DNA from: a virus
IMG/VR virus record: IMGVR_UViG_3300027917_000005
Location: 1 to 50,048 of that record
Strand: one strand, 5' to 3'
DNA length: 50,048 nt
Within the stretch, counting starts at the first letter, position 1. Each line of letters begins with the position of its first letter. The notes below the pieces were generated by a model, which worked only from the letters and a program-made list of their open reading frames with translations, ran no database searches and was not told where the DNA came from. Shown here one piece after another: positions 3,720-50,048 of this stretch. The translations under genes were made by a program, and so were the position numbers.

Positions 3720-4665
3720 TACTCCGATCCCTAAGGCTGAGGAAACCAAACGGCTCCAAGATGGGTACAGAGCTGGGGTTGAAGTAATTTCTAAGAACAC
3801 TCCACCTACCAGTAGAATTATGGTGGGGATTCCAATGACTGGATTGTTGCGGTCTGAGTGGGTATTGGCTCGATATGGGCAGGTGATTCCTTGCAACTGG
3901 AGCCAACTTGATGCCATTCAGTGGTTAGACCAAACCAGCCCGATTGACTTCATGGTGGCGGACGCCAGGAATATTGTTGTACAGCAATTTATTGAGCACG
4001 GCTACGACTGGTTGTTCTTCTTAGATCATGATGTAGTCATTCCTCCGGATACTGTCCTGAGGCTCAATCAGCGGATGCTGGAAGCAACTGTTCCTGTTTG
4101 GAGTGGGCTGTATTTTACAAAGTCTAGGCCCTCAGAGCCTTTGATCTATCGAGGTAGAGGTACAGGATACTATGCTAACTGGAAGTTTGGAGATGAGGTG
4201 TGGGTAGATGGTATCCCAATGGGCTGTACTATGATTCACAGGTCTATCCTGAAAGTCATGTGGGATGAATCTGAGCAGTATAGCGTTGTCCCTGGAAGGG
4301 TCGTAAGAAGGGTGTTCGAGACTCCAGCTAAGGTCTGGTGGGACCCTGAGAAGAGATACTGGTGGACTATGACTGGTACTGAGGATCTGGCATGGTGTAC
4401 AAGGATCATGAATGAAGGGATATTTGGGAAAGCTGGATGGCCACAGTATGAAGGAAAGGAATACCCTTTCATGGTAGATACTGAGATATTCTGTCGTCAT
4501 ATTGACTTTGATGGAATACAGTACCCCGCTGCTTTGGAGCAAGTTCAGTTCATTCCTGACAAGGAGGAAGACAATGAACGTAAGAAAGGGACTATATTTG
4601 ATCCCCGCTTTGGTGTTCGTCCTGCTACAGTGCGCTCATCTCCAGACTCACCAGGGAAAGTGTGA
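3712..4665 (+). CDS. Glycosyltransferase family 2/GT-A-like protein
   Basis: The ATG at 3712 follows GGGAGG; a GTG nine bases upstream is less likely. The 317-residue product has the GT-A pattern of MVGIPMTG near residue 40, VADARN near 84, then WLFFLDHDVVIPP with the metal-binding D-x-D about residue 105. The later GTEDLAWC is an ED-type acidic motif. The cytosolic enzyme would transfer an activated sugar. With the methyltransferase next to it, it could modify host glycans or virion proteins. Confidence 0.78.
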   Translation: MADTPIPKAEETKRLQDGYRAGVEVISKNTPPTSRIMVGIPMTGLLRSEWVLARYGQVIPCNWSQLDAIQWLDQTSPIDFMVADARNIVVQQFIEHGYDWLFFLDHDVVIPPDTVLRLNQRMLEATVPVWSGLYFTKSRPSEPLIYRGRGTGYYANWKFGDEVWVDGIPMGCTMIHRSILKVMWDESEQYSVVPGRVVRRVFETPAKVWWDPEKRYWWTMTGTEDLAWCTRIMNEGIFGKAGWPQYEGKEYPFMVDTEIFCRHIDFDGIQYPAALEQVQFIPDKEEDNERKKGTIFDPRFGVRPATVRSSPDSPGKV

Positions 4666-12713: not shown

Positions 12714-14576
12714 ATGCCTAGTGCACAGAGAATGCCATTTAAAGAGGCAGAGGCCAGAGCTGAGAGTGAAGAACTTACTAAGCTTCTCGATTGGCTACGA
12801 GATGCTGAGTCCTGTACTCCTGAAACCCTCTGGAGAAGGGAGGCAATGGAGGACTACAGGTTCTATGCTGGTGATCAGGATACACCGGAGATAAAAGCTC
12901 TACTCGAAGGACAGAAAAGGCCTGCTACAGTATATAATGAGGTTAAGCCTAAGATAGATATGCTGATAGGTTTAGCTGCTCAGAGCAGGTATGAGCCAAC
13001 TGTCTTCCCTGTTGGGGTGGAGGATGAGCCTCTGACAGAGGTAATTAATGGAGCACTGAAGCACTATGCTAAGAAGATAAAGTTCACACGGGCAGAGACT
13101 GAGTGTTTTGAACATACTGTTAAGAGTGGAAGGAGTTTGTTATACTTCTGGATTGACAGGTCTAATCCTTTTAAGCCTCAGATCAAGTGCAAGAGGATTC
13201 CTGGATTTAACTTCTGGGTGGACCCTGATTCTACTGAATATGATATGAGTGATGCTAGGTTTCTTTTCATTGATAAGTGGCTTACTGAAGAAGAGATTAA
13301 GGTATTCTGGCCTAATATAGATGTGTCAGCTATTAAGGGATACCATGACTCAACTGCTGCAGGTCCAGCATTCTTCAATGAGGCTAAGGATAAGTACAGG
13401 ATTGTAGAAGCTTGGTACAGGAAGTGGGTTAAGGTAAGATGGTTTGTGAATCCACTTACTGGTGAGTCTGAAGGTCTTAGTGTCAAGGAGTTTAAGGAGT
13501 TGGAGAAGGCTTTAGCAGCTGGGATTCCCAATCCTCAGAATCCTCAAGAAACGATTACTCCTTCCATTGATAGGTATCTTGATACCTTTCAGGAGAGGAT
13601 TCACTACAGATTATTTACAGGACATATAGATCTGGAAGGAGATGTTACTCCATATGGAGGATATCTGGAAAAGAGCTTTCCAGCTGTTCTCTTTGGCGCA
13701 TATAAGGATGATGATAACAACAGATGGATGAGTGTCATCCAAGCGATGAAAGACCCTCAGCGGGCAGTAAATACTATGAGAAGGCAGCTGAGCCACTTGT
13801 TGCAGACCTTGCCTAAAGGCTTACTGGTTCATGAGGTAAATGCCATTCTTAATGTAGAGGAGTATGAAGAGAAATCTGCTGATCCAACATTTCACTTAGA
13901 GGTAGCAGCAGGAGCTATTGATAAGGTTAAGTTTGAGAAGCAGCCAAGTATTAGTCCCATTTATCAGACATTTGATGCTACTGCAAGTCAGGGAATGAAG
14001 ACAGCATCAGGCATTGAAGACGAGATGATGGGGATTCAGAAGACTTCTAGAGAGCCTGGAGTAACAGTCAGGATGCGTCAGGAGCAGGGTATGGCGGTAC
14101 TCTATCTGCTGTTTAATAACTTCAGGGACAGCAGGATTGAGGCCTCTAAGAAGTTACTTTCTCTTATTCAGCAATACATGACTGAGGCTGAGCTCATCAG
14201 GATTGAAGGTCCTGGAGGTGCTCAAATGATTGCTGTTAACACCCAGATGAATCCGCAGTCTAAGGGATTCAATGACTTAACTGCAGGAGAGTTTGATCTG
14301 GAAATGGATGAGAACCTGGAGAATGCGACAATGAGAATGGCAATAGCTCAGATTCTGACTGAGTTCAGCCATAACAATCCAGGATCAATTCCACCAGACA
14401 TTGTGCTTGAATACTCAAGCGTCCCGTATTCAGCTAAGACTAGAATCAAGCAGTTCTGGGAAGAGCAAAGAGCTCAGGAACAGGCTAACCTTGAGGCTGA
14501 TAGGGAAATCGAGATGATGAAAGCACAAGCGGCATTAATCAAGGCTAAACAGCCAACAGGTAAGCAAGGAGATTGA
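12714..14576 (+). CDS. Portal protein (P22-type)
   Basis: This 620-residue protein starts after AGGAG. It forms the dodecameric DNA channel at the capsid vertex. Recognisable P22-type portal features are AMEDYRFYAGDQ (44-55), the long conserved block at 67-101 including RPATVYNEVKPKIDMLIGL, and a WVDPDS strand near residue 170. The C-terminal end is charged and helical (EEQRAQEQANLEADREIEMM), like the barrel region. It sits between terL and scaffold, the usual order. Confidence 0.92.
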   Translation: MPSAQRMPFKEAEARAESEELTKLLDWLRDAESCTPETLWRREAMEDYRFYAGDQDTPEIKALLEGQKRPATVYNEVKPKIDMLIGLAAQSRYEPTVFPVGVEDEPLTEVINGALKHYAKKIKFTRAETECFEHTVKSGRSLLYFWIDRSNPFKPQIKCKRIPGFNFWVDPDSTEYDMSDARFLFIDKWLTEEEIKVFWPNIDVSAIKGYHDSTAAGPAFFNEAKDKYRIVEAWYRKWVKVRWFVNPLTGESEGLSVKEFKELEKALAAGIPNPQNPQETITPSIDRYLDTFQERIHYRLFTGHIDLEGDVTPYGGYLEKSFPAVLFGAYKDDDNNRWMSVIQAMKDPQRAVNTMRRQLSHLLQTLPKGLLVHEVNAILNVEEYEEKSADPTFHLEVAAGAIDKVKFEKQPSISPIYQTFDATASQGMKTASGIEDEMMGIQKTSREPGVTVRMRQEQGMAVLYLLFNNFRDSRIEASKKLLSLIQQYMTEAELIRIEGPGGAQMIAVNTQMNPQSKGFNDLTAGEFDLEMDENLENATMRMAIAQILTEFSHNNPGSIPPDIVLEYSSVPYSAKTRIKQFWEEQRAQEQANLEADREIEMMKAQAALIKAKQPTGKQGD

Positions 14577-32178: not shown

Positions 32179-33378
32179 TCAGTTCCAGTGATACCAAATT
32201 TCTTGTTTTTTGTTAGTTGGATCAACGTACTTCCTTGTAACATCACCACTTCTGATAAGGGTAGAGATAACGTTATCGAACTTCTTGGCATCTACATCTC
32301 TCCATACCATATGAAGTAGTCTCTTTTCAGAGATAGCCGAATGTCTCTGTATTACATTCCTGACTAAATCAACATCTGCAGTTATATCACTTCTACCAAC
32401 AGCTGTGAATGTCTTCCCCATAAGGGATTCTGCCTCCTCCAGGTAATCTAGGGCACGCTCCAAATCACGAATCTCCACCTTCCTTTCATTGTGTCTACTA
32501 GCAGCTAGGATGGTCCCTAGCTTTATCATGAAAAGAGGCTTCCTAGAGTACCAGCCATTAAAGGCAGGGTCCTTACATATCCTAGTAGGATCACGTTCAT
32601 CATAGCTGTTATAGAATTCAGACCACCATTTTCTGCTTTCCTTGTTAAAGTTATAAGACCCTGCTATTCTAGCAATAACACTGAGATCTTGAATAAGAAG
32701 ATGCTTAAGCTCCCTCATTCTCTGAGTGAGTTCAGGAACATCTACTTTCTTCTCTTTATCATCAGCCCAGATAAATATCATTCTTGTAGTAAGGCCTCCT
32801 CCAATAGCACTACTGGGAAGACAGCTGGCTAAGCTCTCTGGAGTAGTCGCTGCTAATAGGTTAAGAAACACATGAGGTACTACATTAGTTCCAGCGTGTT
32901 TAGTCCTATACTTGAAGGGCCTACTCTTGCAGTCGAACAAATCAGTTAGTGTGACTAGCATCTTAGTATTCTCCTTCTTCTGTCCAAGAAAGCTTTCAAA
33001 CTCCCCAGATAGAATACTAAGTGAGCTATGTCTGAAGACTGTATTGTCAGGCATGAGAGCATCGTCTCCTGCTTCTTCTAAGTCTTCAAGAAGAGCCTGA
33101 GGCGTGATGGCATCTGCAGATATGTTTATACCTGTGACTTCATTGAGAATGTCCTCCCCAAAACTGATTGCCTGAGTCTTGCGAGCAATTCCAGGCTCTG
33201 CAACTAAGACAACGAAAAGATTAGGATACACCCGTATCCTGCCAAAGTGAAAGTGTACCTTTCGCCTCAGAGCTGAGGCTATCATACTTATCCCTACCCA
33301 CTTGTGGAATATAGCAGCACTTTCAGTTTCCTTGGTAAAATTTATATAGCCTCCTAACCAATCAGATAATTGGCGCAT
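32179..33378 (-). CDS. DUF3987-like P-loop protein, putative replicative helicase/primase partner
   Basis: This 399-residue protein has an N-terminal helical part followed by YPNLFVVLVAEPGIARKTQA, a degenerate Walker A (about 60-68). The later LSILSGEFESFLGQ and GGGLTTRMIFIWAD are typical of the DUF3987/YfjI-like family seen with primases. A winged-helix-like C-terminus (about 335-399) follows. It probably acts in DNA replication. The ribosome site (AGGAG immediately before ATG) is unusually close. It is the last leftward gene and converges on 32172. Confidence 0.72.
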   Translation of the reverse strand: MRQLSDWLGGYINFTKETESAAIFHKWVGISMIASALRRKVHFHFGRIRVYPNLFVVLVAEPGIARKTQAISFGEDILNEVTGINISADAITPQALLEDLEEAGDDALMPDNTVFRHSSLSILSGEFESFLGQKKENTKMLVTLTDLFDCKSRPFKYRTKHAGTNVVPHVFLNLLAATTPESLASCLPSSAIGGGLTTRMIFIWADDKEKKVDVPELTQRMRELKHLLIQDLSVIARIAGSYNFNKESRKWWSEFYNSYDERDPTRICKDPAFNGWYSRKPLFMIKLGTILAASRHNERKVEIRDLERALDYLEEAESLMGKTFTAVGRSDITADVDLVRNVIQRHSAISEKRLLHMVWRDVDAKKFDNVISTLIRSGDVTRKYVDPTNKKQEIWYHWN

Positions 33379-33790: not shown

Positions 33791-33969
33791 GACTCTCCTC
33801 CTAATTTGAATATATGCGTAATGCCAGTGTACATAGCATCAAGAACTGCCTCCTCAGCCTTAGTTAGAGAAGGAAGCACCTTCTCTTTATAGCCCCCTAA
33901 CAAGCGCCCTAAAAGGACCAGATCTTGCATTGAGTATTCGACTGTATATACTACCTTAATTACTCTCAT
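33787..33969 (-). CDS. Small hypothetical protein after polymerase (60 residues)
   Basis: The ATG at 33969 overlaps the polymerase stop (14 bases), so coupled translation is likely. The product MRVIKVVYTVEYSMQDLVLL has a beta start and a helical end. A longer frame from 34017 lies over polymerase coding sequence and is less likely. Not recognised. Confidence 0.55.
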   Translation of the reverse strand: MRVIKVVYTVEYSMQDLVLLGRLLGGYKEKVLPSLTKAEEAVLDAMYTGITHIFKLGGES

Positions 33970-36343
33970 AGTTCTGTAGCTCCCCCCAACTAGGTCCAAT
34001 AGCAAAGTCAATATCAATGAAGAACTCCTCTCCGTCTACCTGCAGAGGCACAGTCATAGATTCCTTAAGGAGAGATATAGTTCTGTCAAGTTCCTCTTCC
34101 TTAACAATAGTATAGATAGCATCATGCAACTGCAAGGCTAGATGGATTTCTTCTCCATACTCATTGTAGATAACTACAAGAGATTTATTGAGTAAGTCTC
34201 CAACAGTAGATTGTGGCTTATACGAGTAAGCACTTCTAAATAGATTATCTCCCCACCTTTCCAGGAATCTATGAGGCCTGCCAAGGAGGTTAGTCAACAT
34301 ACGAGTCCTTCGCAGTTCCTCTTGAATTCGCAGATGCCACAGTCGTAGCTGAGGACAAGTATCATGGAACTGTTCCAGCAGCTTCTTAGCCTCTGACATA
34401 GAACAGCCTAGCTTTGCAGACAGTACCCCTGGACCTGCAGAGTAGTTAGTAGCATGACGGATTGCTTTACCTACATCACGCTGAGCCTCAGTTACTCTCT
34501 CCAAAGGAATACCGAAGTTAGTATGGGCGGTGAGCTTATGAATGTCGTAGTTATTCTCTGCTCGCTGAGACTTGGTTAGCCCATAGGATTTCCTGAACAT
34601 CTCCTTCATAGGCTCATCACCTATAAGGAAAGCAACTACAACTGCCTCCGCCTGGACATAGTCAGCCTGAAGAAATAAGTGTCCCTTTGGAGCAGTATAG
34701 ATAGTTCTTGCTGTATACGGAACGTTCTGAAGATTACCACTTCCATAAGGAAGGATGATAGACTGACTAGAACTCCATCTACCAAAGGACTTGTACTGAT
34801 CTTCATCGTCAACAACTAAGCCCTTCTTCTGCCGCTGCATTGTAGCCCCTGTGACATTGTAGCTGGTATGTACTCTTCCCTCTGGAGATACCTCTATATC
34901 AATGAAGCTATTTAACAGTTTAGTAAGCTTCTTAGCCTCCAGTATCTTCTTTAGGAGTGGATTGCTAGTAGTCCTTAATAGCTTAGTCAGCGCCTCTGCG
35001 TCTGCAGTAATCTTTCTATTGTCATACTTAGACTTCCTCCGCTTATACTGAACAGGTAAACTCATATCTATGTACAACAGATTCTGCAGTTGTTTAGGAG
35101 AGTTAATGTTTACTTCCCTCCCGAAGTCCTGAGTAAGCTCCTCATTCAGTTGAGCTATTCTAGTCTTAATATTAGCCTTAATAGTATTCCTCCGACCTAG
35201 ATCCACTTCAACACCCTGGAGTTGTAGCATAGTAGCTGGCCATACCTGAGACATCTCGAACTCATAGGTGTCCCTGACGCTTAGCTTATCAATCTCATTC
35301 TGCATTACTTCCCAGACACCATAGGTATTGGCTGCATCAGCACAGTTGTACAGGGAGGGCATAGTAGCTGCGGTATGTTTCCAGGGAGGGACGTTTAAGC
35401 AGATAGAAGTCATATAGGCAAGGCTGCGAGGAACTTCAGGCCAGCATACATGACCAGCTATCATGGTATCATGTCTGAACTTACGACAGAGGATGCCAAG
35501 GTGATGCCACAGAACTGCAATATCATACAGACCATTGTGAGCTATCACTTCTAGCTTATCCAAGACTTTTGCAAGCCACAACCAGACTTCTCTTTCCTTT
35601 GCTGGATCTAGGCGGGGCTTTTTATTAGACAGGAAGGTAAATGATAAGGCATGATTAGGGTTATCAGCAATCCCAAGAATGTCTATATGACACCCAGGCA
35701 TTACAGTTTCGATGTCTAGAGCTATTGGAGCTTCATGTTCAAAGTAGAGATACTTTAGGTATTCTAAGAACTCTAGCCTGCTGGGATAGGCATTAAGCCT
35801 CCTGCTATCAACAGGCATGGATGGACCTTCAGAATTAATCCTGGCCTTTCTAAGATCCATTATAGCAGTAAAACCTAGCCTCCACTCATAATTTACTTTC
35901 TGAGGGTGATAAGTTGCTATTATTTTTTGGCCAGGAACTAGGGTGCTTTCAGTAATGTACCCCCGCTTGTCTTTGATTCCCTTCTCTCCAGTCAATGCCC
36001 ACAGTGCTGTCCCACCAAGAGCAACAACTATGTTGGGCTTGTAGGTCTCGATCTCTTTCTTGAGGGTTGCAATCCAGTCCTTTAGAATAGGCTTTGGCCT
36101 AGTCATTTTCTTATCTTCGAAGTAAAAGCTTATCTTATTACCAGGAGGTCTCTCCCGAGCCACATTAGCAACAAGACATTCTGCACGGGTTATCTCAGCC
36201 TGCGCCAGCAACTGGTTAAGAGTCTTTCCAGCAGGGGCATTGGGCCGAAAAGGTTTCCCTGTTCTATCTTCTTCTTCTCCAGGAGCCTCTCCGACCAGCA
36301 TTATCTTTGCAGTCAGCGGGCCCTCAGTTCTTACGTAGGTCAT
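33956..36343 (-). CDS. Uracil-DNA-glycosylase / DNA polymerase A fusion
   Basis: This 795-residue fusion has three parts. Residues 1-165 form a UDG family-4-like domain: GEAPGEEEDRTGKPF (18-32), NVARERPPGN (60-69) and YHP (145-147). The Fe-S cysteines usual in family 4 are absent. A 3'-5' exonuclease follows, with ALDIET (Asp210, Glu212), HNGLYD (Asp274) and YNCAD (Tyr332, Asp336), all intact. A family A polymerase follows, with motif A QADYVQAE (Asp561), motif B KAIRHATNYSAG (626-637) and motif C LQLHDAIY (740-744). HDA replaces the usual HDE. It is the phage replicase. Its ATG overlaps the YkgJ-type gene by four bases. Confidence 0.93.
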   Translation of the reverse strand: MTYVRTEGPLTAKIMLVGEAPGEEEDRTGKPFRPNAPAGKTLNQLLAQAEITRAECLVANVARERPPGNKISFYFEDKKMTRPKPILKDWIATLKKEIETYKPNIVVALGGTALWALTGEKGIKDKRGYITESTLVPGQKIIATYHPQKVNYEWRLGFTAIMDLRKARINSEGPSMPVDSRRLNAYPSRLEFLEYLKYLYFEHEAPIALDIETVMPGCHIDILGIADNPNHALSFTFLSNKKPRLDPAKEREVWLWLAKVLDKLEVIAHNGLYDIAVLWHHLGILCRKFRHDTMIAGHVCWPEVPRSLAYMTSICLNVPPWKHTAATMPSLYNCADAANTYGVWEVMQNEIDKLSVRDTYEFEMSQVWPATMLQLQGVEVDLGRRNTIKANIKTRIAQLNEELTQDFGREVNINSPKQLQNLLYIDMSLPVQYKRRKSKYDNRKITADAEALTKLLRTTSNPLLKKILEAKKLTKLLNSFIDIEVSPEGRVHTSYNVTGATMQRQKKGLVVDDEDQYKSFGRWSSSQSIILPYGSGNLQNVPYTARTIYTAPKGHLFLQADYVQAEAVVVAFLIGDEPMKEMFRKSYGLTKSQRAENNYDIHKLTAHTNFGIPLERVTEAQRDVGKAIRHATNYSAGPGVLSAKLGCSMSEAKKLLEQFHDTCPQLRLWHLRIQEELRRTRMLTNLLGRPHRFLERWGDNLFRSAYSYKPQSTVGDLLNKSLVVIYNEYGEEIHLALQLHDAIYTIVKEEELDRTISLLKESMTVPLQVDGEEFFIDIDFAIGPSWGELQNYESN

Positions 36344-38598: not shown

Positions 38599-39117
38599 TT
38601 AGAAGGGAATGTCATCTTCTGACCCATCAGACTCAGAAGCCCTACGAGCCATACTGGAGACACTATTCCTTGTGCGACCCTGATACTCCTCCATGGATAA
38701 GCTAACAACTACATCAATGCCTACCCAATCACCTGACTCAATAAAGGCCATAATCTGAGTAGGACTATCCATGTTGATCTGCATACTATCTGCAAACTGC
38801 TTCATCATGTTGATCTTGGCTTGCCGCTTAGTGCTTCTGCCTGAGGCAGTCATCTTGTTCTCATCACCAATCCTTGGAAGCCAGTTGCGATAGGTAAATG
38901 CTTGGCCGTCAATAGGAGTCTCTCCATCAGACATTACCCCACCATTGTCTGCTAGGACAACCCTCCAGGCTATTGCCTGGTTGGCCATCTCAAATGTGAC
39001 ACCAGCCACACTACCAAGATAGTTACCTTGCGGGGCTAACGGGTCTGGCTTGTACTCATCTTCCAGACTAAAGTCTGTCTCGATGTGCGCTCCTTCTTGG
39101 GGTTCTAGTTCTGTCAT
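38599..39117 (-). CDS. Putative single-stranded-DNA-binding protein (DUF669-like)
   Basis: This 172-residue protein starts after AAGGAG. The C-terminus is acidic and ends DGSEDDIPF, the tip typical of SSB proteins that recruits partners. The core (YLGSVAGVTF, WRVVLADNGG, MKQFADSMQI) is consistent with an OB-fold phage SSB. It lies directly after the Sak4-like ATPase and overlaps it by four bases, forming a recombination set. Identification rests on the tail and context. Confidence 0.68.
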   Translation of the reverse strand: MTELEPQEGAHIETDFSLEDEYKPDPLAPQGNYLGSVAGVTFEMANQAIAWRVVLADNGGVMSDGETPIDGQAFTYRNWLPRIGDENKMTASGRSTKRQAKINMMKQFADSMQINMDSPTQIMAFIESGDWVGIDVVVSLSMEEYQGRTRNSVSSMARRASESDGSEDDIPF

Positions 39118-41075: not shown

Positions 41076-41507
41076 CTACCCCTCGTCATCAGTAATGCCA
41101 GGAATCTTCATTCCAAGGTCGCCCAGCAGCTTCTTAGCTGTAGCCTTCTCATCGTCAGACAGGAGCTCGTAATTCTCAATGATGGCTTTGATGGGAACCT
41201 TAGGAACAGCAGGGGCTCTGACTGTCCAGTCACCAGCCTTGAGGCCATCCCACACCTTGTTGATAGCTTCCTCTGCCTCAACGCCCTTGCGTCCAGCAGC
41301 AGCATCACCAAGCTTGTGACCAAGCCCAAAGGGTCCAAGGCGATCCTGAATATCCATCGGGAGATCAAGGATGCTAAAGACCATTTGACCTTCATTGCCT
41401 CCAAGGACAGTGATCTTGACCAGGGGATGATCAGTCAGATCCTTCTCCAGTTTCTTGCGGGACTTTTTCTCTGTGTCCGGGGTCTGAGTCGTTGTCTCTT
41501 CTGCCAT
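41076..41507 (-). CDS. Acidic phage protein, paralogue of the join-spanning gene
   Basis: The ATG at 41507 follows AAGGAG. The 143-residue product contains LPMDIQDRLGPFGLGHKLGD and VWDGLKAGDWTVR. The join-spanning protein (140 to 49661) carries the matching YLVYYGFKQKAADA and VYQRLLAGDWNAK, so the two are related. The family is found in phages but has no known function to me. It ends LLSDDEKATAKKLLGDLG, a phrase also echoed in the protein at 47991. Confidence 0.7.
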   Translation of the reverse strand: MAEETTTQTPDTEKKSRKKLEKDLTDHPLVKITVLGGNEGQMVFSILDLPMDIQDRLGPFGLGHKLGDAAAGRKGVEAEEAINKVWDGLKAGDWTVRAPAVPKVPIKAIIENYELLSDDEKATAKKLLGDLGMKIPGITDDEG

Positions 41508-41667
41508 GGTGTTCTCCTTCTTTGTCAAGTTGGTTTACCCATTCCTCTACGATCTCTCGCAGAAGATCTCCTAAAGGCTTATCTTGGTAGATGGCTTCAA
41601 CTTTCAGCCGCTTGAAAGTTCCGCTGTCTAGAACAGTTTGGACATATCTTGAAGCCATCTCAGACAT
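41431..41667 (-). CDS. Ribbon-helix-helix-type protein, candidate regulator
   Basis: The ATG at 41667 follows AAAGGAGG. The 78-residue product has a strand-helix-helix pattern RYVQTVLDSGTFKRLKVEAI, then LGDLLREIVEEWV (about 6-45), as in CopG/Arc-type dimeric repressors. It is the first gene after the leftward promoter at 41726-41754. RHH dimers bind short palindromes, so it is one candidate for binding the dispersed operators or this promoter. The charged C-terminus overlaps the next gene. Confidence 0.65.
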   Translation of the reverse strand: MSEMASRYVQTVLDSGTFKRLKVEAIYQDKPLGDLLREIVEEWVNQLDKEGEHHGRRDNDSDPGHREKVPQETGEGSD

Positions 41668-43084: not shown

Positions 43085-43662
43085 TATGTCCTCCTCTCAT
43101 GAGGCTTCGTCACAAATTCAGCAACGTCCCCAAACTTGAAGGTGTGGTTCCCAGTTTTACGAACCCTCTCCCTCATGTTATCATTGATGGTTTGAAGCTC
43201 CCGTATCTTATCCCTGAGTTGTTTTATCTCATGCTGGTGAGTCTTCTTCTGGTTAGAGATGGTGCTTTCAAGGGTTAGAATCTGGCTTGATTGGGAGCTG
43301 ATCTTCTTCTTCATGTTCTCAATGACGCTGATGAGAGCAAGGCCAACTTCTTCTGGATGCCATACAGTATCTGGAGACTTAGTCTTCTTCTCAAGAGTTG
43401 TTCCTTCTGGAACGGTCCAGCGGAATCCCCTCTCTCCCTTAACAGCAGGATGGCTTAAGACTTGATCCTTCTTCTTTAATATGCTAAGAGCATTGCTTAT
43501 CGTACTGGCATCAGCACGGGGGAATTCCTCTGTCACTTCTGGAAGGATCTGGGACACAGTAAGTGGCCCTGTTGGGGAGGTCTTTAGTACCTCCAAGATT
43601 AACTCACTCACTCCGATGTTAGCCATACGCTTTTCTGTCCTACTTAATTTCTTCAGACTCAT
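43084..43662 (-). CDS. Winged-helix protein with coiled coil
   Basis: This 192-residue protein starts after GGAGG. Residues about 15-80 look like a winged helix (ILEVLKTSPTGPLTVSQILP, then STISNALSILKKKDQV). Residues about 110-165 form a coiled coil. It probably binds DNA, as a regulator or replication-initiation factor. It overlaps the upstream gene's end by 23 bases. Confidence 0.65.
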   Translation of the reverse strand: MSLKKLSRTEKRMANIGVSELILEVLKTSPTGPLTVSQILPEVTEEFPRADASTISNALSILKKKDQVLSHPAVKGERGFRWTVPEGTTLEKKTKSPDTVWHPEEVGLALISVIENMKKKISSQSSQILTLESTISNQKKTHQHEIKQLRDKIRELQTINDNMRERVRKTGNHTFKFGDVAEFVTKPHERRT

Positions 43663-44080
43663 CGCTCTTACCTCCTTCTATGAAGAGGAGTTCCTCGGCA
43701 GTTAATTCTCCCTCGATAGCTTCTATCTCCTCAAGGGTTAGCCCATCCTTCTTCATTAGGGTTAGCCTCCTCCATCTATCTCTTTCCTGTTTAATCTCTA
43801 CCCTCTCAGTAGTGCCATCAGACCTCTTTATAAAGCCCACTAAAGGAGTTGTCATAACCTTTCTGATTCCTACCCATAGCAGGCCATCAGCTACCCTCTT
43901 GAATGGGACCAGGGTAGAGGCAGTTACAGGGTCAATCCCCTTGAGAATTTCAACTTCCTTCTTGATAGACTTAAGAAGCTGTTTTTGTTGCTCCTTGCTC
44001 TCAACAGGAAGGTGGAGTTCCTCTCCTGTTTTAGAAGTAAGGACTTTCTCTATCCAGCTTATCAGTATATCTCTATTCAC
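43640..44080 (-). CDS. Hypothetical helical protein, related to the 44395 product
   Basis: A GTG at 44080 follows AAAGGAGG and gives VNRDILISWIEKVLTSKTGE. An upstream ATG (44272) would run over the neighbouring gene in another frame and is rejected. The C-terminal RRLTLMKKDGLTLEEIEAIEG matches in style KQLMREDGISEEEIAAYFGE in the gene at 44395, so the two may be paralogues. Function unknown. Confidence 0.62.
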   Translation of the reverse strand: MNRDILISWIEKVLTSKTGEELHLPVESKEQQKQLLKSIKKEVEILKGIDPVTASTLVPFKRVADGLLWVGIRKVMTTPLVGFIKRSDGTTERVEIKQERDRWRRLTLMKKDGLTLEEIEAIEGELTAEELLFIEGGKSDESEEIK

Positions 44081-44090
44081 CTTCCCTCCT

Positions 44091-44423
44091 TTAGAATTGG
44101 GAGTAATAGTCTCCCTCATCTGGAAAATATCCATCCTCGTAAGGATCATGAGATGCCTTATCAAAAGCTGCATCATAAGCCTCTTCATCTTCCATAAGCT
44201 TTTCGACAAAGTCCTCACTACACTTAACCCACTCCCCTTTATCATCTTCTGCGTAGGCTTCCAAGATCTCAAGGAATGGAGGCTCCTCGGGAGAGTGCTT
44301 TGTCTGTCTGATCCTTGGATAAAGGATAAACTTAGTTAACGCCACCTGCTTCCCAAGGAATGATATCTGGGGAGCATCATCAGGACTATAGGTCTCAGGT
44401 CTGTTCTTGGGAAAGGTTATCAT
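44091..44423 (-). CDS. Acidic hypothetical protein (110 residues)
   Basis: This product is strongly acidic at the C-terminus (DEEAYDAAFDKASHDPYEDG). Its start overlaps the 44395 gene by 29 bases. It sits between the two related genes at 43640 and 44395. Not recognised. Confidence 0.6.
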   Translation of the reverse strand: MITFPKNRPETYSPDDAPQISFLGKQVALTKFILYPRIRQTKHSPEEPPFLEILEAYAEDDKGEWVKCSEDFVEKLMEDEEAYDAAFDKASHDPYEDGYFPDEGDYYSQF

Positions 44424-46035: not shown

Positions 46036-46058
46036 AATTCCTCCTTTAGCATAGACCC

Positions 46059-46609: not shown

Positions 46610-47050
46610 TTAGCACCTTACCTTTCTGGTGACCTCACAAATACTTCCCTCCACGGGGAATCCAGCCATCACCAGAATGTTCTTGACTATATCAACACTC
46701 TGGTAGTGCTTCTCCAGCTCGTGATTGTAGGTGCGAATTATTACCTTGCATCCGGAGGAAGTTGAACAGAGGTCGTACTTGTTGGAGCCTATCCTGATGG
46801 TTGATGAAGCAATGTAGGTTCCGTCAGATTTGATGTAGTTGAATCTGCCGGGGATGGATCGCCTGATGTTATCAAGCATTGTAATTGTCTCGCTCCATGG
46901 GTCAGTCTCATAATGAATGAGCTTCCCATCGAAGAAGACTTCAATTTGGGTCTGGTGATAGGTTACAGGAAACTTGCTAGAGATCTCCTCTCTAGGGCAG
47001 TTGATGTTGATTTCTGTCTCTAACTTCTCGAACTTGCCAAAGCCTGACAT
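46610..47050 (-). CDS. Hypothetical protein (146 residues)
   Basis: It starts after GAGGAGG. Mixed alpha/beta (IEVFFDGKLIHYETDPWSET; GCKVIIRTYNHELEKHYQSV). No motif recognised. Part of the early leftward cluster. Confidence 0.58.
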   Translation of the reverse strand: MSGFGKFEKLETEININCPREEISSKFPVTYHQTQIEVFFDGKLIHYETDPWSETITMLDNIRRSIPGRFNYIKSDGTYIASSTIRIGSNKYDLCSTSSGCKVIIRTYNHELEKHYQSVDIVKNILVMAGFPVEGSICEVTRKVRC

Positions 47051-47061
47051 GGTAGCCTCCT

Positions 47062-47448
47062 CTACAAAATGGTTACTAGCACGCCCTTCTTTCTGGCGTA
47101 TCTAACAGTTGCCCATGTTCCTGATCTTAGTACCTCCTTTCTTGTGTGTGGGCAGGCGATGAGGCGGTCAACTTCATCAACCATCTCTTTGTTTCTGATG
47201 AGATAGTCCTTCGGTTCTCTTGTCTCGTCCCCATCTAGGAATGCCCGGAAGTTGGGTTTAGTGGGCGGATGGATTATGAGCTTCAGCTTGAATAGTCGTG
47301 CCAGATTGTGAAAGCTCTCATCTGCCCCAACACAGTCACCATGGTGACAGCTGTCTATCTTGCTCCTTAGTTGAGCCAGGAGTTGACGCACTGCCCTGTA
47401 TTGGACAGGCGTCATTCCCAGCCGGGAGCCTGTGAATCCTATTTTCAC
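47062..47448 (-). CDS. SLOG-family (YpsA/DprA-like Rossmann) protein
   Basis: A GTG at 47448 follows AAGGAG and gives MKIGFTGSRLGMTPVQYRAV. SCHHGDCVGADESFHNLARL is the family's conserved block. SLOG proteins bind nucleotides or nucleic-acid-derived ligands and occur in phages and defence systems. The specific ligand is not predictable here. Confidence 0.75.
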   Translation of the reverse strand: MKIGFTGSRLGMTPVQYRAVRQLLAQLRSKIDSCHHGDCVGADESFHNLARLFKLKLIIHPPTKPNFRAFLDGDETREPKDYLIRNKEMVDEVDRLIACPHTRKEVLRSGTWATVRYARKKGVLVTIL

Positions 47449-47970
47449 TTAGTGCTCCTTTATCCATTGCTTGAATACATTCCTGACTTGCTTAGCCTTT
47501 GGGTGACGCCAGTGAACCATGTTGCCCAGGATGTACATTAACCTCTCCTTGAGCTCATGATCTGGGGCTATGAGAGCCATCATGACTCTCCTGATTGCCC
47601 AATTAAGGGATGTGGCGTGGGACTTGGTGTCAGAGACCATTATTCTCAAGTGCTCCCTCACGTCCTCTGCTGATGGGCTAATCTGTACATCAGCAGTTAC
47701 CTCTTCCCAGTCAAACCTAATGATCCTGTCCTTGAATGTATCTCCGGTGTTGCAGCGGAGGGTCGCTATTGCTCTTCTTTGCATCATCCTGGATGGTGGG
47801 TACTTACTTCCGGCACTTCCAATGTATCTCCACTTGCCTACACAAAATGCCTGGATCAGTTTGTCTCTGACTCTTGCTTTGAGAATGCACGGATTATCTG
47901 TCCTCGGATCACAGCCGCCGTACTCCTCCTTGACAATCTTGTCCAAGGTGGCTTCAATTAAGTTTTCCAT
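47449..47970 (-). CDS. Hypothetical protein (173 residues)
   Basis: It starts after AAGGAGG. Helical and basic in parts (WAIRRVMMALIAPDHELKER). GGCDPRTDNPCILKARVRDK near the start. Not recognised. Its stop abuts the SLOG start. Confidence 0.57.
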   Translation of the reverse strand: MENLIEATLDKIVKEEYGGCDPRTDNPCILKARVRDKLIQAFCVGKWRYIGSAGSKYPPSRMMQRRAIATLRCNTGDTFKDRIIRFDWEEVTADVQISPSAEDVREHLRIMVSDTKSHATSLNWAIRRVMMALIAPDHELKERLMYILGNMVHWRHPKAKQVRNVFKQWIKEH

Positions 47971-47990
47971 GAGCAGCCTCCTTATTGAAT

Positions 47991-48464
47991 CTAGAATTTA
48001 CCTAAGAGTTTCTCAGCAATCTTTCTTTCTTCATCACTTAATAAGTCCATATTCTTCTCTATTGTATCCCTTGTGCTCTCCTTTCTGCCTGATGTCCCAG
48101 GCCTTATTTTGTTTATCTTGGCCAATGACCTTTCTGCTAGGTCAAGGCGATGATAATGAAAGAGGTATGACATTTCCAGTCGTTTCAGGGTATCCCTGAC
48201 TTCGACCAGATGTCCATGCAATCTCTTCATTTCCTCCCTGCTGCCTGCTGCCAGGGCTCTCAAATCATCCTCTCCCTTTTGCTTAATCTCTTGATAGGCA
48301 GCTGCCCGAGAGAATCTTGCTGCCTCGAAAGAGATTGTTCTGTCCCGCTCCATAGCGTGGTGGACTGGTCTAGGAAGCTTTACCAATGGGGCAGCTTCCC
48401 TCAACTTCTCAGCCATGGTCTTCGCCCTGGGCTTTTTGTTGTTACCAAATACAGGCCATTTCAT
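47991..48464 (-). CDS. Coiled-coil protein, first gene of the leftward arm
   Basis: The ATG at 48464 follows GGGAGG, about 35 bases after the expected transcription start. The 157-residue product is basic at the N-terminus and has a long helix (about 60-115). It ends LLSDEERKIAEKLLGKF, like the end of the 41076 product. First gene behind a strong promoter, hence probably early. Function unknown. Confidence 0.62.
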   Translation of the reverse strand: MKWPVFGNNKKPRAKTMAEKLREAAPLVKLPRPVHHAMERDRTISFEAARFSRAAAYQEIKQKGEDDLRALAAGSREEMKRLHGHLVEVRDTLKRLEMSYLFHYHRLDLAERSLAKINKIRPGTSGRKESTRDTIEKNMDLLSDEERKIAEKLLGKF

Positions 48465-48504
48465 GATTTCTTCCTCCCTTTTAAGACTTTCTGATTATAC
48501 CACT

Positions 48505-48533
48505 ATTTTAACACGAAACGTCCCAGATGTCAA
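48505..48533 (-). promoter_or_regulatory. Leftward promoter with TTGACATCTGGG core and an operator half-site
   Basis: Minus strand: TTGACA (48533-48528), 17 bases, TAAAAT (48510-48505) with an upstream TG. A second extended -10, TGGTATAAT, ends at 48494. The spacer contains GACGTTTC, a half-site of the dispersed 29-bp element, so the operator-binding protein may control it. Confidence 0.8.
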
Positions 48534-48550
48534 CCGTAAAATTGAAGGCG

Positions 48551-48833
48551 TAACACTCGCCTGTAACATTTTTTGTGTAGCTGTATGTGTAACAGAAACC
48601 GTAACCGTAACGGTAACATTCCTAAACCCTCTCTTTTCCCGACCCTAAAAAATCATCCCCTTTTTTTAAGCTGGCTCTTTTCCTTTTTCTTATTATTTTT
48701 TTTTCTTTTTTTTTTTTAAGAAGAGAAGAAAGAGAAAGCTGAGAAAGAAATAGCTGAACAGGGGGTGATTTTTGGACGGATAAAAACAGGGGGACAGGGA
48801 AAGTTACCGTTACCGTTACCGCTGCTGTTACAC
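48551..48833. repeat. Inverted clusters of GTAAC/GTTAC pentamers
   Basis: The left cluster (48551-48617) has six GTAAC copies, ending in CCGTAACCGTAACGGTAAC. The right cluster (48802-48833) has GTTACCGTTACCGTTACC, then GTTACAC. The arms are reverse complements of each other. They could be protein-binding iterons. Confidence 0.62.
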
Positions 48834-48850
48834 TTACACCTTGGATTTTA

Positions 48851-49100
48851 CGCCCTTTAGAATAAGAAGATTTGGGGATTAGGCTGGGGTATTGTTGCCC
48901 CTCCCACAAAGAAGAAATGTCAACAAGGAAGCTGCCCGTTTGGGGACAGCTTGGCGTGAATTTTCGCCTTTAGAATATGGAGAGTTTATATCTAGCCTGG
49001 AAGGGGAAAGAAGATGGGATTAGGGGAAGCTGGATTATCGAGATTTCTGCCCGATTTGGGCGCCTTTAGCATATGAGAAGTTGTATATATAGCTTAAAAA
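48851..49100 (+). repeat. Three degenerate direct repeats (CGCCTTTAGAATA...TAGCCTGG)
   Basis: Copies centre at 48854-48888, 48967-49000 and 49063-49096, spaced 113 and 96 bases. Each has CGCC(C)TTTAG[AC]ATA, then A/G-rich sequence, then (in two copies a TATAT run and) TAG-C-type ends. Flanking CCCGTTTGGG/CCCGATTTGGG and AGAAGAT..GGGATTAGG also recur. They are noncoding. Confidence 0.5.
48912..48923 (+). promoter_or_regulatory. Isolated operator half-site
   Basis: AAGAAATGTCAA matches the left half of the dispersed operator, but the TTGAC half is missing. It lies in the origin-like region and may be a relic or a weak site. Confidence 0.4.
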
Positions 49101-49124
49101 TAAAATTTCTTCCTCGGAAACAAA

Positions 49125-49151
49125 GAAAAAAAAGAGGGGCTTTCGCCCCTC
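49125..49151 (-). terminator. Leftward intrinsic terminator
   Basis: Minus strand: GAGGGGCGAAAGCCCCTC (49151-49134), a seven-pair stem with a short GAAA-type loop, followed by TTTTTTTT. It overlaps the stop of the gene at 49150 and ends the short leftward unit. Confidence 0.85.
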
Positions 49152-49323
49152 AGTCATCCATCTCCTTTCTCTTGATCATTAACTCCACTATCAGGCGGTC
49201 CAGCTCCTGCTTAGTCAGGAGTAGGCCAGCGATCCTGATTCCCTTGCCTCTCTTGCGAAACTGGAGCCTGAGGCAGCCGCCACTGATCTGAAAACGCAGG
49301 GTCAATTCTGAAATCTTAATCAT
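49150..49323 (-). CDS. 57-residue hypothetical protein
   Basis: The ATG at 49323 follows AAAGGAGG and gives MIKISELTLRFQISGGCLRL, continuing as basic then helical. Last gene of the short leftward unit, with the terminator on its stop. The 17 bases around its ribosome site are identical to those of the 49601 gene. Not recognised. Confidence 0.62.
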   Translation of the reverse strand: MIKISELTLRFQISGGCLRLQFRKRGKGIRIAGLLLTKQELDRLIVELMIKRKEMDD

Positions 49324-49338
49324 GATAAACCTCCTTTA

Positions 49339-49360
49339 GGGGGGGGGGCTTTCGCCCCCT
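49339..49360 (-). terminator. GC hairpin between two leftward genes
   Basis: AGGGGGCGAAAGCCCCCC on the minus strand has the same GCGAAAGC tip as the terminator at 49125-49151 but lacks a T-run. Possibly a weak terminator or a duplicated relic. It lies just after the 49365 stop. Confidence 0.45.
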
Positions 49361-49364
49361 CCTC

Positions 49365-49601
49365 TTACGGGTGGATGTGTAGAGCCTGCTCATCAGGCTC
49401 AGGTTGTACCTTGTCAGGGTAGGTGGGAAAGTGGCTGACGTCCTCATGAGGACCGTAGTACCACTCTTCGTAGTGGTTCAGCTTGATTCCCATGACTTTA
49501 CATCCGGAGACGTCATGGTAGCCGCCTTCGTAACCGTCCAGGATTACCCTCATGTCAGCCGGGAACCTTTTAAGTTCCTTAATCAGTTCAGCGATAGTCA
49601 T
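49365..49601 (-). CDS. Conserved hypothetical protein (78 residues)
   Basis: The ATG at 49601 follows AAAGGAGG and gives MTIAELIKELKRFPADMRVI, then LDGYEGGYHDV. This matches a small family often seen in bacteria and phages (E-L-L-x-FP-x-D-x-x-V, GYEGGY-D). The function of the family is unknown to me. The longer frame from 49637 has no ribosome site. Confidence 0.68.
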   Translation of the reverse strand: MTIAELIKELKRFPADMRVILDGYEGGYHDVSGCKVMGIKLNHYEEWYYGPHEDVSHFPTYPDKVQPEPDEQALHIHP

Positions 49602-49635
49602 GATAAACCTCCTTTGTGGTTGTCTTGATCCCTCC

Positions 49636-49652
49636 AAACGCCCCTGCTCAGG
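49636..49652 (-). repeat. CCTGAGCRGGGGC element, copy 3
   Basis: The reverse complement reads CCTGAGCAGGGGCGTTTGG, like copies at 188 and 1053. It lies in the leader of the 49601 gene. Function unknown. Confidence 0.45.
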
Positions 49653-49660
49653 GAACGTGT

Positions 49661-50048
49661 CTACTCGCCTTCCCGGCGCAGGAGCTCCCGAGCGACGTCT
49701 TCAGCGGTGACGTAGGGGAGCACTTTCTCCAGCACTCTCATCTCCGCCTCGCTGTCGCATCGCTTCAGGGCTGCCGCAGCGCGGTCGACGGACGTGACCT
49801 TGGCGTTCCAATCACCTGCGAGCAGGCGCTGGTAGACCGCCTCGAACACGTCCAACCGCTCCTGGTCGGTGAGCTTAGCAGGGGCAGCAACTGCCGTAGC
49901 ATCCGCTGCTTTCTGCTTGAAGCCGTAGTACACTAGGTACTTGTCGACCTCATTCAGCTCTGACCAGTCCGCCGAGAATAGCGAAGCCAGATCGTAGGAT
50001 CCTGTCAGGCCGGACGGCAATGTAACCGTGGCCATGCCTGAGTCGGTG
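49661..50048 (-). CDS. 3' part of the join-spanning phage protein (142 residues in all)
   Basis: The gene starts at 140 and continues through the circular join to its stop at 49661. It contains YLVYYGFKQKAADATAV and VYQRLLAGDWNAK, related to FGLGHKLGDAAA and VWDGLKAGDWTVR in the 41076 product. Its DNA is much richer in G+C than the rest (42 of 60 bases at 49741-49800), suggesting recent acquisition. The family is phage-borne with no known function to me. Confidence 0.82.
   Translation of the reverse strand, partial: TDSGMATVTLPSGLTGSYDLASLFSADWSELNEVDKYLVYYGFKQKAADATAVAAPAKLTDQERLDVFEAVYQRLLAGDWNAKVTSVDRAAAALKRCDSEAEMRVLEKVLPYVTAEDVARELLRREGE
49950..50048. repeat. Terminal direct repeat (right copy)
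   Basis: Identical to bases 1-99. The minus-strand gene 49661-140 crosses it in frame, which supports circular closure. Confidence 0.93.

Follow-up and report, generated by a model that had tools for sequence, protein, structure and literature searches.

An imperfect dyad at positions 48535-48852 of the viral record IMGVR_UViG_3300027917_000005 (50,048 bp, the whole of this stretch being called here the window) is probably the replication origin of a phage, with a melting element placed between mirrored arrays of initiator sites. This reading, which is made from sequence, is well supported by comparative anatomy, namely by the build of the dyad itself and by an architecture kept at the same genomic place in relatives. 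It has been proposed because the dyad is strong and unique in the genome, because its core shows the lowest stability of the genome and because arms are found in 16 of 24 genomes, and also because a replication set is encoded by the phage itself. The record begins and ends with the same 99 bases and is probably a whole phage genome of 49,949 bp, either circular or assembled as a circle. The early operon runs leftward in its right half (about 32.2-50 kb) and encodes a UDG-PolA polymerase, a DUF3987 ATPase, Sak4, a PD-(D/E)XK nuclease, a ParB-methyltransferase and a DNA ligase, with conserved small early proteins at 38599-39117, 41076-41528, and 43640-44272; the left half carries the rightward terminase, portal, and structural genes. 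A nucleotide search of the INPHARED phages with the region 47000-50048 gave no match. Up to 48745, where it stops, an independent metagenomic contig (L007) with 99.97% identity bears out the left arm and the core of the dyad; the right arm is known from the window record alone. An assembly chimera has been rejected as an explanation, since the arms are just 78% alike, L007 repeats the left arm and core, and the architecture occurs in many unrelated assemblies.

The dyad covers about 320 gene-free bases around an axis at about 48710. It is the top-scoring inverted repeat of the genome (best 500-bp window), with a self-alignment score of 108 as compared with 48 at most in 1,000 dinucleotide shuffles, and as single-stranded DNA it folds with a z score of -7.0. 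The outermost left arm (48535-48553, 19 nucleotides, nt) pairs at 84% with the outermost right arm (48834-48852), the main left arm (48579-48637) is 78% complementary to the main right arm (48783-48841), and the inner left arm (AAAAATCATCCCCTTTT, 48648-48664) pairs at 88% with the inner right arm (48757-48773). The left repeat array (48550-48617, plus strand) holds six GTAAC pentamers, at 48550, 48563, 48589, 48601, 48607, and 48613, the last three with a 6-nt period and all of them left of the axis; the right repeat array (48803-48831, minus strand) is its mirror and holds four GTTAC pentamers, at 48803, 48809, 48815, and 48827, three of them with a 6-nt period and all right of the axis. These arrays of period about 6 thus stand about 95-160 nt either side of the axis. 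The ten GTAAC/GTTAC pentamers found in 48540-49125, all facing the axis, compare with about 1.2 expected from the genome average, and the next-densest 320-bp stretch of the genome has six. The core (48678-48737) is formed by a T-rich tract and then a purine tract (AAGAAGAGAAGAAAGAGAAAG); this 60-mer is the least stable of the whole genome and is proposed as a DNA unwinding element. Two features of theta-type phage origins are present here, namely a least stable AT-rich segment and adjacent clustered short repeats. A sequence-only reading of the window had already described GTAAC/GTTAC clusters facing each other around a poly-T and purine-rich core, within a larger imperfect palindrome with nested inverted repeats, next to an early promoter and without genes, and all of this has been borne out; the interval that it delimited (48540-49125) does contain the dyad, but this ends at 48852 and positions 48853-49125 are not part of it. 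When the dyad was searched as RNA against Rfam, only plant microRNA-type hairpins were returned, with low scores far below the gathering scores, and an RNA reading has been rejected for this reason.

The same plan has been found in relatives. Among 57 IMG/VR loci, scanned with the terS-like helix-turn-helix gene upstream of the large terminase as anchor, 19 (some of them near-duplicates) carry dyads scoring 50-174 with AT-rich cores upstream of the terS-like gene, as compared with downstream controls of the 57 loci that never exceed a score of 41; many further loci anchored in this way end before or at the expected place of the dyad. Arms were also tested in 24 genomes, with 200-500 shuffles per site and the second low-stability site of each genome as a control. 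Sixteen of them, counting the window, have their least stable or second least stable 60-mer close to where the early operon starts, with inverted arms on its two sides that outscore every shuffle, and the control sites are mostly without arms, with one exception (G032 at 4213). The arm-bearing genomes include the cultured or named phages Desulfofustis phage LS06-2018-MD01 and Microcystis phage Mel-JY34 (the latter with its dyad at about 44.2 kb), and arms are also carried by two Manatee Spring phages, whose polymerases are only 25-30% identical. In two genomes (G029 and G036) the site falls at a contig end.

This architecture is conserved in position, not in sequence. The outer repeats vary by phage and are mirrored in each of them, being GTAAC in the window, GTGTACG in G009, CATCTG in L116, CGATTAC in L112, GTACAC in G021, CTACAGGG in L044, GTTTCACC in L101, and GAACGGTGAAC in a metagenome-assembled genome (MAG) of Bacillota. 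Conservation of the pentamers in relatives, which had been put forward as a check of the origin, holds in part: no outer pentamer is more enriched in the family than GTAAC/GTTAC (44 occurrences vs 16 expected, at 12 of 17 sites), but many relatives use other repeats. Inside the dyads, TATATA, TTTCTT, and CTTAGA are enriched family-wide. The core type of the window recurs in G031, where a 43-nt match at 91% makes the two cores near-identical (a T-tract and then AAGAAAGAAGAAAGCTTAGAAGAAAG). G031 shares the T-tract/AAGAAAGAAGAAAG core of the window, but carries mirrored arrays of other repeats (CTACTACC and CTAGTG); therefore, with a like core and different mirrored arrays, the arrays seem to have been replaced together on both arms. 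The end-to-end DNA alignment of both sites is uninformative, the likeness being confined to the core. Also in favour of an origin, six direct repeats CTTGTAACT-N11 with a period of about 20 are found in L053 (G005) at about 13380-13530, on one side of an AT core; this is a classic iteron layout with GTAAC letters.

Two proteins of the early operon are of special relevance for this origin. The replicative DNA polymerase (33956-36343, minus strand) combines, according to domain matches, an N-terminal UDG-like domain with a family A polymerase, and is conserved across the family. The DUF3987 protein (32179-33378, minus strand; PF13148) is a predicted AAA+ ATPase with a C-terminal winged-helix-like region, and is most likely the helicase that would act at the dyad. 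In the most distant dyad-bearing phage (MW202554), no early proteins other than these two can still be recognised. DUF3987 domains have been predicted as helicases in the primase-helicases of mobile elements, the winged-helix domains of which have been suggested for origin recognition (PMC5862659). The structure of the protein of the window was predicted with confidence (31 family members), with a mean predicted local distance difference test (pLDDT) of 89.6, and the 50 best PDB matches of the predicted fold are all MCM subunits or MCM-containing replication complexes, with E values down to 1e-10 and template modelling (TM) scores of only 0.40-0.49. By sequence, the protein has no match in PDB, and in Pfam it matches DUF3987 only and no known MCM family. 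The likeness of the predicted fold to MCM would be a moderate resemblance, not membership.

From the anatomy described above we infer initiation and the following course of action. A phage protein acting as initiator would read the repeats on both arms, and strain or supercoiling would open the T-rich/AT core. Replicative helicases, for which the DUF3987/MCM-like ATPase of the phage is the likeliest candidate, would then be loaded as a mirror-oriented pair, and the phage UDG-PolA polymerase would copy the genome bidirectionally. Early transcription would depart leftward from the dyad, expressing the replication genes. A more specific and rather doubtful proposal is that the mirrored, fast-changing arrays of 6-8-nt repeats set two MCM-like AAA+ helicases (DUF3987) head to head on either side of the melting core, in what might be a bacterial-virus counterpart of the symmetric helicase loading of archaea and eukaryotes, the arms being perhaps kept alike by concerted evolution.

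Several results weigh against an origin at the dyad. The period of the arrays (6-8) is shorter than that of usual initiator iterons (about 20 bp), and no initiator gene was identified in the genome. DnaA boxes (TTWTNCACA) are absent from the window site and from 15 of the 16 other sites, a single one being found in L077. Four genomes (G011, G014, G030, and PaP2) show no significant arms in the shuffle test, and Caulobacter phage Kuura has a marginal arm only; the PaP2-type Pseudomonas phages have the DUF3987 protein and the polymerase in common with the window, but no comparable dyad. The GC-skew minimum is found 1.6 kb away from the dyad, at the switch of gene direction, and leftward genes show no change of third-position skew from one side of the dyad to the other (0.105 and 0.147). 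GC skew, which had been suggested as a test of the origin, is thus uninformative; it follows gene direction, not the dyad, and gives no independent support for the origin. A strand-composition switch at the origin is not required in small phages.

Repeats beside or around an AT-rich segment are known from other viral origins. In the Bacillus phage SPP1, oriL and oriR consist of direct repeats and an AT-rich DNA unwinding element (PMC6316719). The dyad resembles them in having repeats that could be read by an origin-binding protein (OBP) beside an AT-rich melting element, in the phage-encoded replication set, and in the gene-free intergenic site (as oriR). However, the dyad has short repeats (period 6-8) that mirror each other across the core, whereas those of SPP1 are direct and on one side, and no homologue of gp38 or gp39 has been identified here. 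Another example is found in herpes simplex virus, where the OBP boxes of OriS and OriL are inverted on either side of an AT spacer (PMC12543377). Both there and in the dyad, inverted recognition boxes flank an AT-rich spacer inside a palindrome, although here arrays of 3-6 short repeats replace single boxes and the dyad is several times larger than OriS; regarding the UL9-type superfamily 2 (SF2) origin-binding helicase, no SF2 helicase domain was found among the scanned window proteins. In the origin of the Vibrio cholerae satellite PLE, a poly-A tract is the point towards which the iterons of RepA_N converge (PMC7145576). Convergence of repeats on a poly-A/poly-T tract is shared with the dyad, but no RepA_N match occurs in this phage. 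The core origins of SV40 and papillomavirus have arrays of pentamers or hexamers (with a period of about 6 nt) beside AT-rich DNA, and these serve for the mirror-oriented assembly of hexameric AAA+ helicases. These are only an analogy, since the helicases belong to the SF3 class, the hosts are eukaryotic and the spacing is much smaller. The general type of origin is already known, and what would be new here is a phage origin with mirrored, rapidly changing arrays of short repeats around a melting core, of which no description has been found in the open-licence literature.

The surroundings of the dyad are relevant for the alternatives. A sigma-70-type promoter (TTGACA-N17-TAAAAT, 48533-48505 on the minus strand, 11 of 12 matches) abuts the left arm and drives the leftward early operon, the first open reading frame (ORF) of which is at 47991-48464; a TTGACATCTGG block of this promoter region is also present left of the dyad in L078, L085, L044, and L123. 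On the other side, the next leftward ORF ends at about 49150, and no convincing gene is found between both. A strong intrinsic terminator (GAGGGGCGAAAGCCCCTC-T8, 49134-49151, minus strand) ends a short leftward unit right of the dyad. With the terminator on one side and the early promoter on the other, the dyad is a gene-free island, insulated from transcription. The genes right of the dyad are also leftward in nearly all of the 16 loci examined, and since gene direction is the same on both sides, divergent promoters do not explain the mirror symmetry.

The near-consensus early promoter abutting the dyad, together with the tight linkage of the dyad to the first early gene in relatives, would fit a regulatory operator, with the mirrored repeats as binding sites for an early repressor or activator of this leftward promoter, and the AT core serving only as a spacer whose flexibility or bending would let the arms loop together. 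This explanation is regarded as unlikely. Only one promoter is served, given that the right-hand genes are leftward too, and a mirror symmetry over 300 bp would be unneeded; a core at the genome-wide stability minimum would not be expected either, and these phages already have a separate, dispersed operator-like dyad (GTCAA-N2-4-TTGAC). Another explanation relies on secondary structure, the dyad forming a cruciform or a single-strand hairpin for recombination, concatemer processing, single-strand initiation or fork stalling, with a sequence that drifts while the arms pair. In fact, the arms change together and keep their pairing, the DNA fold is of low z score (as given above), and contigs from several samples break at the core, where the scaffold of one MAG (L207) has a gap. 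On the other hand, tandem repeats of 6-8 nt in each arm are unneeded for pairing alone, a low-stability spacer of 145 nt between the arms is poor for extrusion in duplex DNA, and homopolymer AT repeats would also be expected to break contigs in assembly, so that a structural role is held to be quite unlikely.

The breaks themselves are recurrent. Many independent contigs of the family break at or beside the core of the dyad, two of them at the same base, the list including the starts of L007, L051 (G003), L082, L089, L091, L096/L098, L097, and L100; the gap in L207, at the place of the dyad, lies at about 2.1 kb of that sequence. They are probably due to assembly or library dropout at AT homopolymers, a physical interruption being the alternative.

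The sequence-only reading had offered a packaging or recombination centre as an alternative to the origin; the origin is supported by the anatomy and by the architecture kept in relatives, and packaging or recombination is not. A pac or cos site for the nearby terminase is very improbable: a small-terminase-like gene lies about 1.7 kb from the dyad on the circle, but this distance ranges from about 0.9 to 2.9 kb across relatives, with leftward genes in between, whereas the link to the early operon is constant, and a long dyad with an AT core corresponds to no known form of pac or cos. A protelomerase target, by which the circle would be turned into a linear molecule with hairpin ends, is suggested by the long palindrome and by the contigs ending at the core, and can practically be discarded, since the dyad is imperfect (78%, with a gapped T/purine core) and these enzymes need a near-perfect palindrome, the sequence of the window continues across the site as a circle, and no protelomerase, integrase or partition ATPase is found among the window proteins scanned with Pfam and PHROG; prophage and partition readings were rejected on the same scans.

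An origin at the dyad would be of biological significance because the origins of most environmental phages are not known and cannot be found by sequence similarity, and no studied origin has been found for phages with a replication set of UDG-PolA polymerase and DUF3987 ATPase. The recurring plan, in which the genome-wide stability minimum and its mirrored arms stand where the early operon begins, marks a probable origin in a large family of uncultured phages. If true, such origins could be located by a simple rule, the function of DUF3987 proteins could be tested on a concrete substrate, and the coevolution of initiator and origin could be studied in a natural series of origins that share one plan but differ in their recognition letters.

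Two other repeats have been noticed in the window. The gene-free stretch right of the dyad has three copies of a 22-nt repeat (CGCCTTTAGAATATGGAGAGTT), at 48852-48873, 48965-48986, and 49061-49082, which are 96-113 nt apart. In addition, a 31-bp dyad (TAAGAAACGTCAATAATTGACATTTTGACTG) occurs in nine copies (25-31 of 31 identities) in or beside short intergenic gaps, at 397, 17548, 31037, and 36635 on the plus strand and at 46058, 40954, 25694, 12671, and 2542 on the minus strand. This dyad resembles a dispersed, stoperator-like operator or else a site of partition type that the ParB-methyltransferase might use, and its GTCAA-N2-4-TTGAC core is present 3-15 times in most IMG/VR relatives as compared with 0-1 in shuffles.
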